In this document: positions 20,980 through 30,930 of the stretch, piece by piece
Layout: each line of letters begins with the position of its first letter
How positions within the stretch are numbered: the stretch's first letter is position 1
DNA from: Pseudomonadota bacterium
GTDB lineage: Bacteria > Pseudomonadota > Alphaproteobacteria > SMXQ01
NCBI GenBank assembly: GCA_022545545.1
Contig: JACZQV010000012.1
Location: 1 to 32,022, forward strand
DNA length: 32,022 nt
Direction of reading: 5' to 3'
Made by a program: the position numbers and the translations under genes
Notes under the pieces: model-generated
Told to the model about the DNA's origin: nothing
Databases searched by the model: none
Seen by the model: only the letters and a program-made list of their open reading frames with translations

Positions 20980-22281
20980 CTAGCCCCCGGCGGCGTCGAT
21001 GAGGGCCTCGGGCTTGGGCCCGCCGGTCGCCCAGTCGAGGAGCTCCACCGTGTGCACCACCGGGATGGCGGTGCCGCCGCCGATCTGGATCTGGCAGCCG
21101 ACGTTGCCGGTGGCGATGACCTCGGGCGACACCGATTCGATGTTCTGCACCTTGCGCGCCAGGAGCTGTCTGGCGATGTCGGGCTGCAGCAAATTGTAGG
21201 TGCCCGCCGAGCCGCAACACAGATGCCCCTCGGGCACCGTGCCGACCTCGAAGCCGGCCGCTTCGAGCAGCGCGATGGGCGCCTTCTCCACGCCTTGGCC
21301 GTGGCGGAGCGAACAGGCGGACTGGTAGGCCACCTTGAGGCCCGGCAGGTGCATCGGCGGGGCGAGACCGATTTCGGCGACGAACTCGCCGATGTCCCTG
21401 GCCAGCGCCGACACCGCCTCGGCCCTGGCGGCCCAGCTTGGGTCCTCGCGCAGGATGAAGCCGTAATCCTTGACCATGGTGCCGCAGCCCGACGCGTTGA
21501 TGATGATGGCGTCGAGGCCTTCACCCTCCGCCTCCGCCGTCCACGCCCCGATGTTGGCCTTGATCGCGCCAAGCGCGTCCTTCTCCCGGCCGAGGTGATG
21601 GCCGATGGCGCCGCAACACCCGGCCCCCTTGACGATCAGCACCTCGCATCCGTGGCGCCGCAAGAGCCGGATGGTGGCTTCGTTGATCGCCGGCGCCAGG
21701 GTGCGTTGGACGCAGCCCGCCAGCAGGGCGACGCGCTTCTTCCGCTCGCCCTCGGCGGGGTAGGACCCGGGCCCGCCCGGCCCGGACGGTTTCGGGATCT
21801 TCGCCGGGACCAGTTCGAGAACGCCGCCGAGCGGTCCCGACACCAGCCCTGCCAGCGGACGGAAGAGGCGCGCGAGATGAAGGAGGGGGCGGAACAGCCA
21901 GGGCGTCGGCAGCACCAGGGCAAGGGCCAGGCGCAACGCCCGGTCGGGCCACGGCCGGCGGTAGGTCTCTTCGATATAGCGGCGCCCGTGATCGACCAGA
22001 TGCTGGTAATGGACCGCCGACGGGCAGGTCGTCATGCAGGCGAGGCAGGACAGGCATCTGTCGATGTGCTTCACGACCTCGGCGGTGGCTGGCTTCTCCT
22101 TCTCCAGCATCTCCTTGATCAAATAGATACGCCCGCGCGGGCTGTCGAGCTCATCGCCGAGCAGCACGTAGGTCGGGCAGGTGGCGGTGCAAAAGCCGCA
22201 ATGGACGCAGGCCCGCAGGATCTTCTCCGACTCCCTGACGTCGGCATCGGCAAGCTGGGCGAGGGTGAAGTTGGTCTGCAT
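20980..22281 (-). CDS. glcF: Glycolate oxidase iron-sulfur subunit
   Basis: CVHCGFCTATCPTYVLLGDELDSPRGRIYLIKEML, CLSCLACMTTCPSAVHY, CCG motifs; adjacent to glcE and glcD. Confidence 0.96.
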   Translation of the reverse strand: MQTNFTLAQLADADVRESEKILRACVHCGFCTATCPTYVLLGDELDSPRGRIYLIKEMLEKEKPATAEVVKHIDRCLSCLACMTTCPSAVHYQHLVDHGRRYIEETYRRPWPDRALRLALALVLPTPWLFRPLLHLARLFRPLAGLVSGPLGGVLELVPAKIPKPSGPGGPGSYPAEGERKKRVALLAGCVQRTLAPAINEATIRLLRRHGCEVLIVKGAGCCGAIGHHLGREKDALGAIKANIGAWTAEAEGEGLDAIIINASGCGTMVKDYGFILREDPSWAARAEAVSALARDIGEFVAEIGLAPPMHLPGLKVAYQSACSLRHGQGVEKAPIALLEAAGFEVGTVPEGHLCCGSAGTYNLLQPDIARQLLARKVQNIESVSPEVIATGNVGCQIQIGGGTAIPVVHTVELLDWATGGPKPEALIDAAGG

Positions 22282-22293
22282 GCGCGCCCTCCC

Positions 22294-23553
22294 TCAGACG
22301 CCCGCGTACATGCGCCCGGCATTGAGGATGCCCTTGGGATCGAAGTTCTCCTTCACCCGCCGGGTCAGGCCGGCGAGGGCGTCCGGCTGGGGCTGGAACA
22401 CCGGAACGGTCCGGCGCGTCTCGGCGTCGGCCTTAATGAGCGTGCCGTGGCCGCCGGCATCCCCGATGGCGGCGCGCACGATGGCGGCGCGCGCGCTGGC
22501 CGCCATGTCTTCTAGCGCCCCAATCGCCAGCCAGATCAAGCCGCCGCCCCAATCATAGAAGGCCAGCGTCCGGAGGTTCTTGGAGATCCGCTCGGTGATG
22601 GCGGCGGCCTCGGACGGCGGCGCGGAGATCCGCCACACCTCGGCCGCCGGGCCCAGGTGTGGCGGGGAAACCAGCGGATGCACGTCGCGAATTTCCCGCC
22701 ACAGGGCGCGCGTATCGGCGTGCGCCAACTCGCCTGCCGTGCCGAGACCGGCGAGGCCCTTACCAAGGCCCTCGGCGCGGGCGGCGACCGAGGGCGCCGG
22801 CCCCTCGAGCCTCATGACGGTGGCGGCATTGGCGCCGGCGATCCGCGCCACCCAGGATCGCTGGGCGAGGGGCTTTGGCAGATGGGCCGCGGCGGTGACC
22901 TCCCAGGGCCCGGTAAGCGCCGTGGTCATGGCGGCGAGCGCCGCCCGATCGTCGAGGCCCGGGATCACGACGGTGCGGCTGTCCTCGGGCGCCGGCAGGA
23001 CCTTGAAGGTCACCTCGGTCAGCACCGCAAGGGTCCCGAAAGAGCCCGTCAGCAGCTTGGACATGTCGTAGCCGGTGACGTTCTTCACCACCCGGCCGCC
23101 GGACTTGAAGGCTTCGCCCCGTCCGCTGACGGCCTTGACGCCGAGGATATGATCGCGCGCGGCGCCGGCGGCGATCCGCCTCGGCCCTGAAAGGTTGCAG
23201 GCGAAGATGCCGCCGATGGTGGCCCCGCCGGCCTCCTCTCCACCTTCCGCGCCCTCCAGCAGGGGGCCGTAATCGGCGGGCTCGAACGCCAACTGCTGGC
23301 CGTTCTTATCGAGGCTCGCCTCGATTTCGGCAAGCGGCGTGCCGGGCCTGGCGGTCATCACCAGCTCGTTGGGCTCGTACATGGTGATGCCGGCGAGGCG
23401 CGAGAGGCTGAGGGTCCGCTCGGCCTCGGCGGGCCGGCCATAGGTCCTCTTGGTGCCGGCGCCGAGGACCTCGAGCGGCGTCTCCTCGGCGAGCGCCTCG
23501 GCCACCGCGTCGAGGACCTCTTCCGGGGTGCCGGGCGTTATCTCGTTTTCCAT
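22294..23553 (-). CDS. glcE: Glycolate oxidase FAD-binding subunit
   Basis: LEVLGAGTKRTYGRPAEAERTLSLSRLAGITMYEPNELVMTARPGTPLAEIEA, GRGEAFKSGGRVVKNVTGYDMSKLLTGSFGTLAVLTEVTFKVLP. Confidence 0.96.
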   Translation of the reverse strand: MENEITPGTPEEVLDAVAEALAEETPLEVLGAGTKRTYGRPAEAERTLSLSRLAGITMYEPNELVMTARPGTPLAEIEASLDKNGQQLAFEPADYGPLLEGAEGGEEAGGATIGGIFACNLSGPRRIAAGAARDHILGVKAVSGRGEAFKSGGRVVKNVTGYDMSKLLTGSFGTLAVLTEVTFKVLPAPEDSRTVVIPGLDDRAALAAMTTALTGPWEVTAAAHLPKPLAQRSWVARIAGANAATVMRLEGPAPSVAARAEGLGKGLAGLGTAGELAHADTRALWREIRDVHPLVSPPHLGPAAEVWRISAPPSEAAAITERISKNLRTLAFYDWGGGLIWLAIGALEDMAASARAAIVRAAIGDAGGHGTLIKADAETRRTVPVFQPQPDALAGLTRRVKENFDPKGILNAGRMYAGV

Positions 23554-23571
23554 CGGGCCGAACCCTGCCGG

Positions 23572-25059
23572 TCAGAACCGGGGCAGGTCGGGGTGGCGCA
23601 TCCGCCCGCGATGGATGTGCACGCGGCCGAGTTCGGCGCAACGATGCAGCGTCGGAAACACCTTGCCGGGATTGAGCAGTGATTTTGGATCGAAGGCGCA
23701 TTTCAGGCGCTGCTGGTGCTTGAGGTCGTCCTCGTTGAACATCTCGCCCATGAGGTCCCGCTTCTCGACCCCGACACCGTGCTCGCCGGTCAGCACGCCG
23801 CCGACCTTGACGCACAGCCTGAGGATCTCGGCGCCGAACTCCTCCGCCTTCTCGAGCTCGCCGGGTACGTTGGCGTCGTAGAGGATGAGGGGGTGGAGAT
23901 TGCCGTCGCCGGCGTGGAACACGTTGGCGACGCGAAGGCCGAAGCGCTTCGACAGCTCGGTGACGCCGGTCAGGACCTCGGGCAGCCGGCCCCGGGGTAT
24001 GGTGCCGTCCATGCAGTAGTAGTCGGGGGAGATCCGCCCGATCGCCGGGAACGCGGCCTTGCGCCCGGCCCAAAACGATAGCCGCTCGTCCTCATTGGCG
24101 CTGACCCGCACCGAGTCGGCGCCGTTGTCCTCGGCGATCCGCTGCACCCGCCCGATCAGGTGATCGACCTCGGCCTCGACGCCGTCGAGTTCGACGATCA
24201 GCAGCGCCTCGGCGTCGCGCGGATAGCCGGCATGGACGAAGTCCTCGGCGGCGTGGATCGCCGGTCTGTCCATCATCTCCATGCCGCCCGGGATGATGCC
24301 GGCGGCGATGATGTCGGCGACGCATTTGGCCGCCGCTTCGATGGTCGCGAAGCCGAGGAGAAAGGCGCGCGCGGTCTCGGGCTTCCTGAGGATTCTGACG
24401 GTCACCTCGGTGATGACGCCGAGCAGCCCCTCCGAGCCGGTGAGCACGCCCATGAGGTCATAGCCGTCGGCGCCGACATGCTTGCCGCCGAGCCGGATCA
24501 CCTGGCCGTCGATCAGCACGACTTGAAGCCCCAGCACGTTGTTGGCGGTCAGCCCGTATTTCAGGCAGTGCACGCCGCCAGAGTTCTCGGCCACGTTGCC
24601 GCCGATGGTGCAGGCGATCTGGCTCGAGGGGTCCGGCGCATAGTAGAATCCCTTGTCCTCGACCGCTTCGGTGATGGCGAGGTTGGTCACCCCCGTCTGG
24701 GCGACGACGCAGCGGTTGTCATAGTCGATATCGAGGATGCGGTTGAACTTGCCGAGACCGAGCGTCACCGCGTCGGCGAGCGGCAAGGCCCCGCCCGAGA
24801 GCGAGGTGCCGGCGCCGCGGGGCACCACCTTGATACCGTTGGCGAGGCAATAGGCGAGCACCTTCGAGACCTGCTCGACGGTGGCCGGCAGGACGACGAT
24901 CAGGGGCAGTTCGCGATAAGCGGTGAGCCCGTCGCATTCATAGGCCCTGAGCTCGTCCGCTTCGTCGATCACGCCTTCGCCCGGCACGATATCGCGCAAC
25001 GCTCCGACGATCTGCTTTCGCCGGGCGATGACCTCGGCGTCGGGCTTGGGCATCTTCAT
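23572..25059 (-). CDS. glcD: Glycolate oxidase subunit GlcD (FAD-linked oxidase)
   Basis: VVPRGAGTSLSGGALPLADAVTLGLGKFNRILDIDYDNRCVVAQTGVTNLAI, IGGNVAENSGGVHCLKYGLTANNVLG, HAGDGNLHPLILYD, GEHGVGVEKRDLM. Confidence 0.96.
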   Translation of the reverse strand: MKMPKPDAEVIARRKQIVGALRDIVPGEGVIDEADELRAYECDGLTAYRELPLIVVLPATVEQVSKVLAYCLANGIKVVPRGAGTSLSGGALPLADAVTLGLGKFNRILDIDYDNRCVVAQTGVTNLAITEAVEDKGFYYAPDPSSQIACTIGGNVAENSGGVHCLKYGLTANNVLGLQVVLIDGQVIRLGGKHVGADGYDLMGVLTGSEGLLGVITEVTVRILRKPETARAFLLGFATIEAAAKCVADIIAAGIIPGGMEMMDRPAIHAAEDFVHAGYPRDAEALLIVELDGVEAEVDHLIGRVQRIAEDNGADSVRVSANEDERLSFWAGRKAAFPAIGRISPDYYCMDGTIPRGRLPEVLTGVTELSKRFGLRVANVFHAGDGNLHPLILYDANVPGELEKAEEFGAEILRLCVKVGGVLTGEHGVGVEKRDLMGEMFNEDDLKHQQRLKCAFDPKSLLNPGKVFPTLHRCAELGRVHIHRGRMRHPDLPRF

Positions 25060-25247: not shown

Positions 25248-26666
25248 ATGCGCCGCCACAGAAACGCCAAGATCGTCGTCACCTTGGGACCGGCGACCTC
25301 GAGCCCGCAAACCATCGAGGAGCTGTTTCAAAACGGCGCCGATGTCTTTCGCCTCAACTTCAGCCACGGCGACCACGAGACCCACGCCAAGGCCATCGAG
25401 GCCATCCGGGCGCTGGAAAAGAAATGCGACCGTCCGATCGGCCTGTTGATGGACCTTCAGGGGCCGAAATTGCGCCTCGGCGAGATCAGGAACGGCACGG
25501 TCCGCCTCGAGAAGGGGGCAAGGTACCGCCTCGATCTGTCGCCCGAGCCCGGCGACGCGCGCCGCGCGCCGTTGCCCCATCCGGAAGTGTTCGCCGCGAT
25601 CAAGCCGAAACAGGAGCTGCTGATCGATGACGGCAAGGTGCGGCTCGAGGTCGAGGAGTGCGGCGAGGATTTCGCCGACACCAAGGTCATAACCGGCGGT
25701 GAGATCTCGGACCACAAGGGGGTGAACGTTCCGGACGTCGTGTTGGCGGTCGCGGCGCTGACGGAAAAGGACCGCGGGGACCTCGAATTCGCCCTCGACA
25801 ACGGGGCGGACTGGGTGGGGTTGTCCTTCATCCAGCAGCCGGACGACGTCGCCGCCGTCCGCGACCTTGTCGACGGCAGAATTGCTATCTTGGCCAAGCT
25901 GGAGAAACCGATGGCGATGGCCCGTCTCGACGACATCATCGAGCTGTCGGATGCCGTCATGGTGGCGCGCGGCGATCTCGGCGTCGAGATGGCGCCCGAG
26001 GAGGTGCCGAGCCTGCAGAAGCGAATCATCCGGGCCTGCCGCCTGGCCGGCAAGCCGGTGATCGTGGCGACCCAGATGCTCGATTCCATGGTCCATGCGC
26101 CCAGGCCGACCCGGGCCGAAGCATCGGATGTCGCCACCGCCGTTTATGACGGGGCGGACGCGGTGATGCTGTCGGAGGAAACCGCGACAGGGGACTATCC
26201 CGTCGAATCGGTGGCGATGATGGAGCGGATCATCAAACGGGTGGAAGCCGACCCCCTTTACCGCACGATCATGGACGCCGACCACCCCGGGCCCCAAGCC
26301 ACCACGTCGGACGCCATTACCGCCGCCGCGCGTCAGGCGGCCGAGACGGTCTCGGCGGTGGCCATCGTGACCTTCACCACTTCAGGCTCGACCACGCTCC
26401 GCGCTTCGCGGGAACGCCCCGGAGTGCCGATCCTGGGCCTGACCGGCAACATAGCGACGGCCAGGCGTCTGGTGCTGGGCTGGGGGGTCCATTCGGTCCA
26501 CACCGCCGACGTCGAGAGTTTCTCCGATATGGTGGAAAAGGGCGTCCACATCGCGTTTCGCGAGGAATTCGCCGAGACCGGAGGCCGTCTGGTGATCACC
26601 GCCGGTGTACCCTTCGGTATTTCGGGAACGACCAATATCCTCCGGATCGCCGAAGTCAAGGCGTGA
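25248..26666 (+). CDS. pyk: Pyruvate kinase
   Basis: TKIV-like NAKIVVTLGPATSSPQTIEELFQNGADVFRLNFSHG, MDLQGPKLRLG, AKLEKPMAMARLDDIIELSDAVMVARGDLGVEM, KPVIVATQMLDSMVHAPRPTRAEASDVATAVYDGADAVMLSEETA. Confidence 0.97.
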   Translation: MRRHRNAKIVVTLGPATSSPQTIEELFQNGADVFRLNFSHGDHETHAKAIEAIRALEKKCDRPIGLLMDLQGPKLRLGEIRNGTVRLEKGARYRLDLSPEPGDARRAPLPHPEVFAAIKPKQELLIDDGKVRLEVEECGEDFADTKVITGGEISDHKGVNVPDVVLAVAALTEKDRGDLEFALDNGADWVGLSFIQQPDDVAAVRDLVDGRIAILAKLEKPMAMARLDDIIELSDAVMVARGDLGVEMAPEEVPSLQKRIIRACRLAGKPVIVATQMLDSMVHAPRPTRAEASDVATAVYDGADAVMLSEETATGDYPVESVAMMERIIKRVEADPLYRTIMDADHPGPQATTSDAITAAARQAAETVSAVAIVTFTTSGSTTLRASRERPGVPILGLTGNIATARRLVLGWGVHSVHTADVESFSDMVEKGVHIAFREEFAETGGRLVITAGVPFGISGTTNILRIAEVKA

Positions 26667-27082: not shown

Positions 27083-28342
27083 TTACTTCTTGGGTTTGAG
27101 GGCATAGATCCGGTACATGCGGATATTGCCACTGTCGAGCGCGGCGACACGGCGGGCCCAATGCTCGGCCTCGTCGACCAGGCTCGGTACCAGTTCATCG
27201 GGGATGCTGCCGGGTTCGTGGGTGTCGATGAACTTCTGCCAACCTTCGAAAATTCTCCGCCGCGCGGCCTTTGTGATGTCCTCGACGACGCGGATATCGA
27301 AGGTGAGGCGTTTGAGATAGGCTTCTGTCCGATCCGGGGACCAGAGGTGGGGCTGAACCGGTTCGTGTTCTATCCAATCCTTGACCGCTTGGGACTCGGC
27401 GCCGCGCTCGCGCACCATGTAGTCGGTGAAGACGAACTGACCTTCGTTCTTCAGCGCCGTGAAGACCATCTTGAACAGGTGCTCCTTGTCGGCGACGGTG
27501 AAGAGAGCCTCCTTGGAGAAGACCCGGTCGAAGAAATTGGGCCGTAGTTCGATGGTCTCGAAGTCGGTGTGATTGACCGGCGCTTTCTTTGACATGCCGG
27601 CATTGACGGAACGCTCCATGCCGGCGGCGGCGAGGGCATCGGAGCCCTCCATGCCCGTCAGCCAGGCCTTGGAGTCCTCCGCGATGGCGCGGGCAGGCCC
27701 GCCGAGTCCGGCGCCGAGATCGAGCACGTTCATCGACGAGTTCATACCGAACGGCCGGACCAACTTGAGGACCTGCTCGCTACCGCCAGGGCCGATGAAG
27801 CCGGGGCCCCAAATGGTTTCCACGATCTTGATGCGCTCCGCCGGCCAGTTCTTGTCGGTTATTTCGGGGGCGGCTTCTTCCGCCTTGAACTCGAGGCTCG
27901 CGACCCCCGGGAGGGTTTTCTTCGCCAGGGTTTCCTTGAGGCTTTCGTCGTCGGAGCCGGGTTCAGCCGCTACGTCCTCGGAGTTTTTCCCTTGCCACCA
28001 CGCCAGGAAGCGGACGCGGAAGGAGAAATTGGTTTCACCGGACTCGTCAGATTCGTCGGCTTCTTCGGCCTCCCGGATCGTTTGCGCCAGTTCCTCGGCG
28101 TCATACCCATCCCACCAGGCCTTGAGGCGGATGGAGTAGGGGAGCTTTCCCTCCTCTTCCCCCTCGGACTCGTCCCCCTCGGCGTCCTCCCGGTCGGGGT
28201 CATCGCCCTCGCCGTCTTCGTCTCCCTCAGGAGTCTCGATCAGCGTTCGAGGGTCTTCCCCCGCCCACCAGGCCTTGAAGCGGACGCCAAAAGGAATCTC
28301 GGGGCCATCCTCTTCGGAGGAGGAGGGCCCAAAGGGAATCAT
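27083..28342 (-). CDS. SAM-dependent methyltransferase with three N-terminal AWW-containing repeats and acidic linkers
   Basis: C-terminal class I MTase: MNVLDLGAGLGGPARAIAE, GMEGSDALAAAGMER, FDRVFSKEALFTVADKEHLFKMVFTALKNEGQFVFTDYMV. N-terminal repeats IPFGVRFKAWWAGED / LPYSIRLKAWWDGYD / FSFRVRFLAWWQGKN. The ORF track starts at TTG 28432; ATG 28342 (MIPFGPSSSEEDG) is preferred. Confidence 0.85.
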   Translation of the reverse strand: MIPFGPSSSEEDGPEIPFGVRFKAWWAGEDPRTLIETPEGDEDGEGDDPDREDAEGDESEGEEEGKLPYSIRLKAWWDGYDAEELAQTIREAEEADESDESGETNFSFRVRFLAWWQGKNSEDVAAEPGSDDESLKETLAKKTLPGVASLEFKAEEAAPEITDKNWPAERIKIVETIWGPGFIGPGGSEQVLKLVRPFGMNSSMNVLDLGAGLGGPARAIAEDSKAWLTGMEGSDALAAAGMERSVNAGMSKKAPVNHTDFETIELRPNFFDRVFSKEALFTVADKEHLFKMVFTALKNEGQFVFTDYMVRERGAESQAVKDWIEHEPVQPHLWSPDRTEAYLKRLTFDIRVVEDITKAARRRIFEGWQKFIDTHEPGSIPDELVPSLVDEAEHWARRVAALDSGNIRMYRIYALKPKK

Positions 28343-28424
28343 GCGCCGAAATGTGGCCGCGATTTGCAATAGCCTGGCGTCGATCGTTTCAGAATCACTT
28401 AAGTTAAACTTTACGCTGCAATGC

Positions 28425-28450
28425 TTAATCAACGCTTAATCAACGCTTAA
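28425..28450 (-). promoter_or_regulatory. Candidate tandem CtrA-type binding site upstream of the AWW-repeat methyltransferase
   Basis: TTAA-N7-TTAA-N7-TTAA at 28425-28428, 28436-28439 and 28447-28450; both spacers are TCAACGC. Confidence 0.5.
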
Positions 28451-28686: not shown

Positions 28687-30930
28687 CTATTCGATGACGT
28701 AGATCGGGCTCGACCAGACCTGGTGCCCGTCCTCCTGGGTCAGGCAGACATAAAGGGCGTCATCGGCGCCGGATTTGAGCGCGATCCGGCGTTCCACATC
28801 GAGCCTCATGGCCCCGTTATCGTCGGGCAGGCGAAAGACGCGGACCCGGCGGCCGATGCCGCCGGCCTCGAATTTGCTGTCCTCGAGGCCGATGTCGGAG
28901 ATCTCCAGTTGGCATTGGACCAGGGCCGTCTCTATGCTGAGCGAACCGGCGTCTCGGTCGGCGAGCCACAGATCGAAGCCGACGAAACCGCCGGTCGTCA
29001 GCGCCTTCCAGGAGAGCGTCGTGTCGTCCGGTTGATCCACCGTCTTCTCGAGATTGTAGAAGTTGATCGGCTGGAGCCGCTCGATACGGTTGCCACTGAG
29101 TTTGGCGCCGCCGTCCCAGATGGTCTGGCGTCCGCGGCCCCGGTATTCGGAGCCCTCGAAGATCACCCGGATGCGATTGCCGAGATCGGCCTCCCCGTAA
29201 GGGCGCACGGTTTCCAGGGTCTCGACGCCGTTGCGGATCTCCATGCGCTCTATCGGCGCCGATGTCACCGCCTCGACGGCGAACGTGACCTCGCCATCGG
29301 CGCATCTGACGATGTCGCCCATCATCGCTGCGGACACCTTTCGGCTTCCGCCGGCGCCGAGCGCGGGGTCCTCATCGAACCGCTCGGCGCCATCATCGAA
29401 GCGGGCGCGGACATCCAGGATCATGCGGCATCCCGTCGTCGCGTAATGGTGGCGTTTGCGCAACGACTCGATGAGCCCCTCGCGGCTCAACTCCCTCGCC
29501 AGCATGCAGGTCAGGCCGCCATAGGCGCCGAACAGGGTGGCGCCGGGGTAACTCGCGCCGGGGCGTCCCTTGTGGCCGTCGCTGTTGGCGACGATGCCGA
29601 CGCGATAGCCCTGCTCGAAGGCGTCATGGACGATCCATTCGAAGGTGCCCCAGGCCGAATGGACCTCGACCGCGCGCTCGAGGCGGACATCATGGGCCAT
29701 GACAATATCGGCGTAGCGCCCGCCGACATGGGCGAAGACGACGCAGTCCTCATTGGCGAGGGATTCGAACAGCTCCCTCGCCGAATTGGCGTCGGTCCCG
29801 ATGTCGGAAAGATCGTCGACGAGGGCGTGGGAGGAGCGGCGGATTTGCCGTCCCTCTTCCATGAACAAGACGTTGCGGTCGCCGCCGAGCCCGGTGTTGC
29901 CCGACCATTCGTAGCCGGGAAAGACGACGAACCGGCCGTCCTCGTTGAACTCTTCGCTGAGCTCGTTGAGGTGGTTCCAGAAGCCGGTGGTGATCTGGAA
30001 ATCGTTGCCCTGGTGACAGCAGGCGTCGAGGTACGCCCTGTCGCGGGCGAAGGCGAAGTAATCGCGCGCCGAGTTGGTGCCGATGGTCTCCTCCGACTGG
30101 CCGTGCAGATCGCCCCAGAAGGGGAGGAGCCGGGGCTGGGCTTCGATGCGCAAGGGATTGGACCGGCAGAGCAGCTTGCCGTCCGCATCGACCATCTCGA
30201 CGCGCACGTCCCCGGGTGTGGAGGCACCGAGACCTTCGATGGTGCGGGAGAATTCGCCGGGGCTGAAGGTGACGCTTTCGGGCAGGCCGGTGAGGGGCCC
30301 ATCGGCCCGGAGCCTGAACGTGCCCTCGCACCTGTCGCTCGGATTGCCCCACTTGTCCTCGCCCTTGAGCCTGAGTTCGAAGGGCTCGCCGGCCGGCTTG
30401 AGCGTCGGCAGCACCGCCTTCCAGACGGCGGGCGGTCCCGGCACGATGGCGATCACCGGTGATCCCGGCAACTCGACGTAATTGTAGGTGGCGATGGCGT
30501 CGACCAGCACCCGGAACTCGAAGGTGTCCTCGCAGAAGGTCTGCAGGCGGATGCCGGGCGATCCCCGGCGCATGTCGCCGTAGCGGACGACGATCCTGTC
30601 TCCCTCCCGGAGGAACCCTTGTACCACCTTGATATACAGGGTCTTATCCCACGGGCGGATGTTGTGCTTGATGTCGTAGCGGACGTCGAGCACGGCCTGG
30701 TTCGAGGCCTCGACGGTGACGTAGTTGGGCGCCTCGGGGTCGTCGAACTGGGTCCTGCCCATGTCGCTGGCGAAGCGATGGACGATCTTGATGCTGCCGG
30801 TGTCATCGATGCCGAAAAGCCCGGCCGTGTAGGTGAGGGTGAAGGAGGCGAAGGATCCGGCCTCGAAGGCGCCTTGCGGCTCGATGACGGCGGTCCCCAT
30901 CTGTTCCGGAAGGTAGGTCGAATGCGGCAT
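28687..30930 (-). CDS. DUF3604/PHP-superfamily domain protein
   Basis: LLPFWGDLHGQSEETIGTNSARDYFAFARDRAYLDACCHQGNDFQIT, FVVFPGYEWSGNTGLGGDRNVLF, FAHVGGRYAD, VEVHSAWGTFEW, GIVANSDGHKGRPG, RHHYATTGCRMILDV. Confidence 0.85.
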   Translation of the reverse strand: MPHSTYLPEQMGTAVIEPQGAFEAGSFASFTLTYTAGLFGIDDTGSIKIVHRFASDMGRTQFDDPEAPNYVTVEASNQAVLDVRYDIKHNIRPWDKTLYIKVVQGFLREGDRIVVRYGDMRRGSPGIRLQTFCEDTFEFRVLVDAIATYNYVELPGSPVIAIVPGPPAVWKAVLPTLKPAGEPFELRLKGEDKWGNPSDRCEGTFRLRADGPLTGLPESVTFSPGEFSRTIEGLGASTPGDVRVEMVDADGKLLCRSNPLRIEAQPRLLPFWGDLHGQSEETIGTNSARDYFAFARDRAYLDACCHQGNDFQITTGFWNHLNELSEEFNEDGRFVVFPGYEWSGNTGLGGDRNVLFMEEGRQIRRSSHALVDDLSDIGTDANSARELFESLANEDCVVFAHVGGRYADIVMAHDVRLERAVEVHSAWGTFEWIVHDAFEQGYRVGIVANSDGHKGRPGASYPGATLFGAYGGLTCMLARELSREGLIESLRKRHHYATTGCRMILDVRARFDDGAERFDEDPALGAGGSRKVSAAMMGDIVRCADGEVTFAVEAVTSAPIERMEIRNGVETLETVRPYGEADLGNRIRVIFEGSEYRGRGRQTIWDGGAKLSGNRIERLQPINFYNLEKTVDQPDDTTLSWKALTTGGFVGFDLWLADRDAGSLSIETALVQCQLEISDIGLEDSKFEAGGIGRRVRVFRLPDDNGAMRLDVERRIALKSGADDALYVCLTQEDGHQVWSSPIYVIE

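Follow-up and report, generated by a model that had tools for sequence, protein, structure and literature searches.

The window, by which we mean the whole 32,022-nucleotide stretch that was analysed, carries a methyltransferase gene on the reverse strand (27083..28369) that encodes 428 residues from a TTG start at 28369, with an alternative ATG start at 28342 that would give a protein of 419 residues. Beside it lie pyk (25248-26663, forward strand), which was named from Pfam, and a glcDEF-like glycolate oxidase set (20983-25059, reverse strand); the glcDEF name, like the pheST and lepA names used below for other loci, was assigned by eye from the translations. The next gene upstream (28687-30930, reverse strand; 747 aa) matched DUF3604 and, weakly, the CehA-McbA metallohydrolases. 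A DUF3604 gene was likewise noted ahead of the methyltransferase in the sister species, and not in the family's other genera that were read.

The N-terminal region contains three copies of an AWW repeat, and the three 20-mers that a first-pass annotation had placed at residues 45-64, 96-115 and 135-154 of a 449-aa reading frame were recovered by translation. Repeat 1, EIPFGVRFKAWWAGEDPRTL (28241..28300, reverse strand), carries the predicted helix H27-35, repeat 2, KLPYSIRLKAWWDGYDAEEL (28088..28147, reverse strand), the predicted helix H78-87, and repeat 3, NFSFRVRFLAWWQGKNSEDV (27971..28030, reverse strand), the predicted helix H117-125. The second is the nearest of the three to the family consensus, from which repeats 1 and 3 have drifted away. 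The acidic linker quoted in that annotation was found at 28148..28228 on the reverse strand (EGDEDGEGDDPDREDAEGDESEGEEEG), in a segment of mostly low model confidence that is probably disordered. The description of the repeats as basic was correct for their 12-residue cores, which have a net charge of +1 to +2, and incorrect for the 20-mers as quoted, which are approximately neutral. We found that the DNA pattern R-[FLIMV]-x-A-W-W-x-G matched three times in the 2.75-Mb genome, each time in this gene, with no match in the reversed control, and the three repeats are therefore not a product of chance. The copies differ in sequence from one another, all three are retained in the sister species (85% identical), and the R-[FL]-x-AWW-x-G core of each is intact there.

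The start of the 449-aa reading frame, TTG 28432, was rejected. This codon falls within a CtrA box, the codons from TTG 28432 to 28369 differed from the sister species by one synonymous and seven nonsynonymous changes and thus without synonymous excess, and TTG 28369 marks the place where relatives begin. Codons just after 28369 gave a dS of 0.77 and a dN of 0.14, and the N-termini of relatives, MDISASLKRIFP or MNVASALMKVLPFG, align with LQIAATFRRMIPFG of the window protein. Because of this alignment and the pattern of codon substitution, TTG 28369 was considered the best start.

Distribution and conservation of the AWW motif

In a class-wide profile search, 116 of the 385 alphaproteobacterial genomes contained the family. 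Conservation among these SAM-methyltransferases was highest in the core motif R-[LF]-x-A-W-W-E-G-Y-D, which in its longer form reads [LF]-x-x-R-[LF]-x-A-W-W-E-G-Y-D and forms an N-terminal tag. All of the 44 members in the first set matched a simple motif expression except L043, which still has YAWWEGYD. The motif was readable in 46 of the 78 loci of the remaining matches, which were fetched later; the other loci of this batch were mostly divergent members with a degenerate motif (e.g. LKLWWEGYE) or none, together with a few fragments. Alignment of 47 single-copy members gave five invariant positions, three of which (W, W and G) belong to the motif, which lies outside the catalytic domain; the W-W conservation is slightly inflated by the choice of members through a WW-containing expression (2 of 63 were omitted).

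The association between motif and family was near-exclusive. A stringent DNA pattern, R-[FLIMV]-x-A-W-W-[DE]-G-x-D, matched 36 times in 30 of the 385 alphaproteobacterial genomes; all 36 matches coincided by coordinates with family members, and the reversed control gave none. When 399 Pseudomonadota genomes were searched with the pattern, the seven matches were all alphaproteobacterial, with none in the 264 non-alphaproteobacterial genomes, and the five new matches, once read, proved to be AWW methyltransferases, one of them divergent. The suggestion that AWW repeats might be carried on different catalytic domains was thus not borne out: all 36 matches in the 385 genomes belong to one family, and a module shared among enzymes is ruled out. 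The view that the repeat is not a known domain was upheld: neither the N-terminal region nor the motif matched a Pfam model at E values up to 10. No solved structure matched the AWW peptide alone, and the literature search gave no mention of the motif string. An existing Pfam or InterPro assignment, or the absence of the repeats from all orthologs, had been named as grounds for abandoning the first-pass proposal, and neither was encountered; a local low-complexity expansion is ruled out by a motif that is family-wide and single-copy in other genera. Three matches were recorded in a search of plasmids, the best being a Tistrella megaplasmid (38.5% identity).

One copy of the motif was typical of most members, including those in other genera of the taxonomic family to which the window gene belongs. 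Three copies were found only in the genus of the window gene (L001, L002), and two copies in two or three other lineages (L033; L089 and L090; and, in a degenerate form, L035). Four changes in copy number are needed on the tree, and at least three are unavoidable given its well supported branches, so that the multiplication of copies probably arose more than once. The linkers were markedly acidic in L001, L002 and L033 and less so in other members, and their length ranged from 21 to 73 residues. A divergent relative (L127:1-3030) was also noted that retains AWWDGVD beside a strongly drifted methyltransferase region, which suggests that the tag can be constrained more strongly than the enzyme. 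In a Parvibaculum MAG (L046:5719-7142), the AWW methyltransferase is apparently broken between two frames, owing either to a frameshift or to an error of assembly.

Catalytic domain and its nearest known relatives

As the first-pass annotation had proposed, a methyltransferase domain follows the repeats (27086..27850, reverse strand; Methyltransf_11, E 5e-10). Its score of 40.2 bits against a cut-off of 21.2 identifies a class I SAM-dependent methyltransferase, in which the glycine-rich SAM motif reads LDLGAGLGG; G107, G108 and E125 were nearly invariant in the alignment of 47 members. AlphaFold gave high confidence for this domain (pLDDT >90 across most of residues 175-428 of the window protein) and predicted the AWW segments as short helices flanked by low-confidence linkers; a moderate confidence (~82) was recorded for the helix of the motif.

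The fold resembles that of the phosphoethanolamine N-methyltransferases (PMT). The PMT enzymes of Plasmodium, plants and nematodes were the nearest solved structures to the family domain by sequence (profile E 6e-39) and the top fold match in a search made for a relative (TM ~0.7 by query length), and the GG region, motif I and the TDY element are common to both. The proposal of a small-molecule type of methyltransferase is supported, the nearest solved relatives being phosphobase methyltransferases. However, Tyr19 and His132, which we take to be the PMT catalytic pair (PDB titles name Y19F and H132A mutants), are not kept in the AWW family. Of 47 members, 46 have Trp where PMT has Tyr19; at the position of His132, Thr (22) and Ala (6) predominate, and His is outside the six commonest residues. 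The Arg/Tyr substrate region of PMT is also not conserved, and the AWW tag is outside the PMT-matching part. Membership in PMT was therefore rejected for a family that is related to it by fold and sequence. Because of the replacement of the catalytic Tyr by Trp and of the His mostly by Thr or Ala, the substrate probably differs from that of PMT. For the same reason, the phospholipid substrate suggested earlier is unsupported.

None of the curated NCBIfam cut-offs was reached by the window protein. The top scores were those of NF045667 (DVU_1556 family methyltransferase; 53 bits against a cut-off of 155) and NF041675 (sarcosine/dimethylglycine N-methyltransferase; 41 bits against 550), with which the class I fold is held in common. 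The AWW proteins are a widespread and undescribed methyltransferase family of flagellated alphaproteobacteria, and no curated name fits them.

CtrA boxes, flagellated hosts and genomic context

The CtrA site has been published as TTAA-N7-TTAA (PMC9437464, PMC7200025), and flagellar genes are under CtrA control in every order studied (PMC8116508). Upstream of the window gene, box 1, TTAAGCGTTGATTAA (28436..28450, reverse strand), is an exact TTAA-N7-TTAA and is overlapped by box 2, TTAAGCGTTGATTAA (28425..28439, reverse strand); the sister species has one full box conserved. In the first batch, 14 of 61 members had TTAA-N7-TTAA in the 300 bp preceding the motif, compared to 0 to 2 for other spacers of 2 to 15 bp, an average of 0.27 for shuffles, and 2 of 457 for neighbouring genes. 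A separately fetched second batch had the box in 12 of 46 (other spacers, 0 to 2), and it was found in none of 25 family members lacking the canonical AWW motif. The pooled frequency of 26/107 AWW genes exceeded that of the neighbours (2/457; p 3e-18) and of the members lacking the canonical motif (0/25; p 0.004), p-values that overstate independence, as the members are related to one another. The exact box is absent from approximately three quarters of AWW members. At the level of sequence, a full upstream box that is both enriched and conserved, the mark by which CtrA regulation was judged, is present. The AWW genes share the full box at consensus spacing with the flagellar and chemotaxis genes of the CtrA regulon; unlike these, they usually lie outside flagellar clusters. 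The gene was not found as a named CtrA regulon member in the literature searched.

Flagellin was present in 110 of the 116 family-bearing genomes and in 121 of the 269 genomes without the family. The difference was retained with one genome per family (37/39 compared to 47/99; p 5e-8) and among genomes of at least 3 Mb, one per family (26/27 compared to 19/27; p 0.02). The link is weaker in large genomes, and as a whole it is only partly corrected for phylogeny. This enrichment is consistent with the published CtrA control of flagellar genes. Six family-bearing genomes had no flagellin, including G003 (98% complete), from the same taxonomic family as the window genome. In a co-occurrence search with FlhF, for polar flagellation, other SRP-type GTPases appeared to cross-match.

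The genomic context of the AWW gene was variable and mostly away from flagellar clusters, adjoining pyk-glcDEF or pheST-lepA. Across the class, approximately 17 of 39 loci had the glcDEF-like neighbourhood, and pheST-lepA adjoins the gene in relatives of Kordiimonas. Receiver, Hpt, receiver-EAL or chemoreceptor genes were close to it at several loci; the chemoreceptor neighbours may be due to chance, because such genomes hold many of these genes. Since the neighbours vary, context supports a signalling link weakly.

Possible roles of the AWW peptide

The reading that we tentatively favour, at a little short of an even chance, is that of a CtrA-controlled, motility-linked methyltransferase that is docked through its AWW peptide, to which further copies on acidic tethers would add avidity. 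A class I SAM methyltransferase would carry a short conserved helical peptide at its N-terminus, on a flexible linker, and its gene would be turned on by CtrA along with the motility programme. Through the peptide, the enzyme would attach to a partner that this programme also produces or assembles; the flagellum, the chemosensory array and the flagellated pole are the most plausible sites, and the catalytic domain would methylate a target held at such a site. In the window genus, the tripled peptide on acidic tethers would confer higher avidity or bridge several partner subunits. The analysis itself establishes the family, the motif and its near-exclusive association with it, the copy numbers, and the enrichment of CtrA boxes and flagellated hosts; actual CtrA control, docking, the identity of the partner, catalysis, the substrate and the role of avidity go beyond this as inference.

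A somewhat unlikely alternative is an intramolecular one, in which the AWW helix lies against the methyltransferase domain of its own chain and serves as a lid or gate for substrate entry, the extra copies being either spare or a means of domain exchange between subunits. The restriction of AWW to one enzyme family, in nearly all of its core members, would fit such a role, as would a helix predicted with moderate confidence despite low-confidence flanks; with Trp in place of the PMT catalytic Tyr, the active site may also be completed differently. However, the linker varies widely in length, several lineages retain two or three copies for which a lid has no need, and in more diverged members the catalytic domain persists without a readable AWW.

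The extra repeats of the window genus could also have arisen by neutral tandem expansion and add nothing to function, which we consider quite unlikely. One copy suffices for most relatives and two of the three repeats have drifted from the consensus, but the cores of all three are kept in the sister species, the copies differ among themselves, and multiplication arose, as far as the tree indicates, more than once.

The first-pass annotation had offered membrane-interface binding or partner docking, and of these docking fits the invariant W, W and G, and membrane binding gained no specific evidence. Lipid-binding helices usually conserve composition and not residue identity. That the helices attach to the membrane interface and so bring the enzyme to lipids is improbable here, even with an aromatic, basic core, a short predicted helix and a fold related to phosphobase methyltransferases, because the W-W-x-G residues are invariant by identity, the linkers of the three-copy proteins and L033 are strongly acidic, and the PMT catalytic residues are not retained. 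A protein partner, rather than a membrane, is favoured by the acidic linkers and the invariant W-W-x-G.

A bolder form of the docking proposal, which we regard as rather unlikely, is that an unnoticed CtrA-controlled motility methyltransferase is recruited by AWW to the machinery of the flagellum, the chemosensory system or the pole, a component of which it methylates, as a second methylation system beside CheR, with copy number tuning recruitment. An odd repeat has in this way become a testable lead, a widespread family whose most conserved residues are outside the enzyme domain, and identification of the AWW partner would reveal whether a further methylation step takes part in alphaproteobacterial motility or polar development. 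Several genomes hold two family members (L077 and L074 in G061; L104 and L141 in G220; L051 and L096 in G282; L164 and L171 in G137), so paralogues with different targets may exist.
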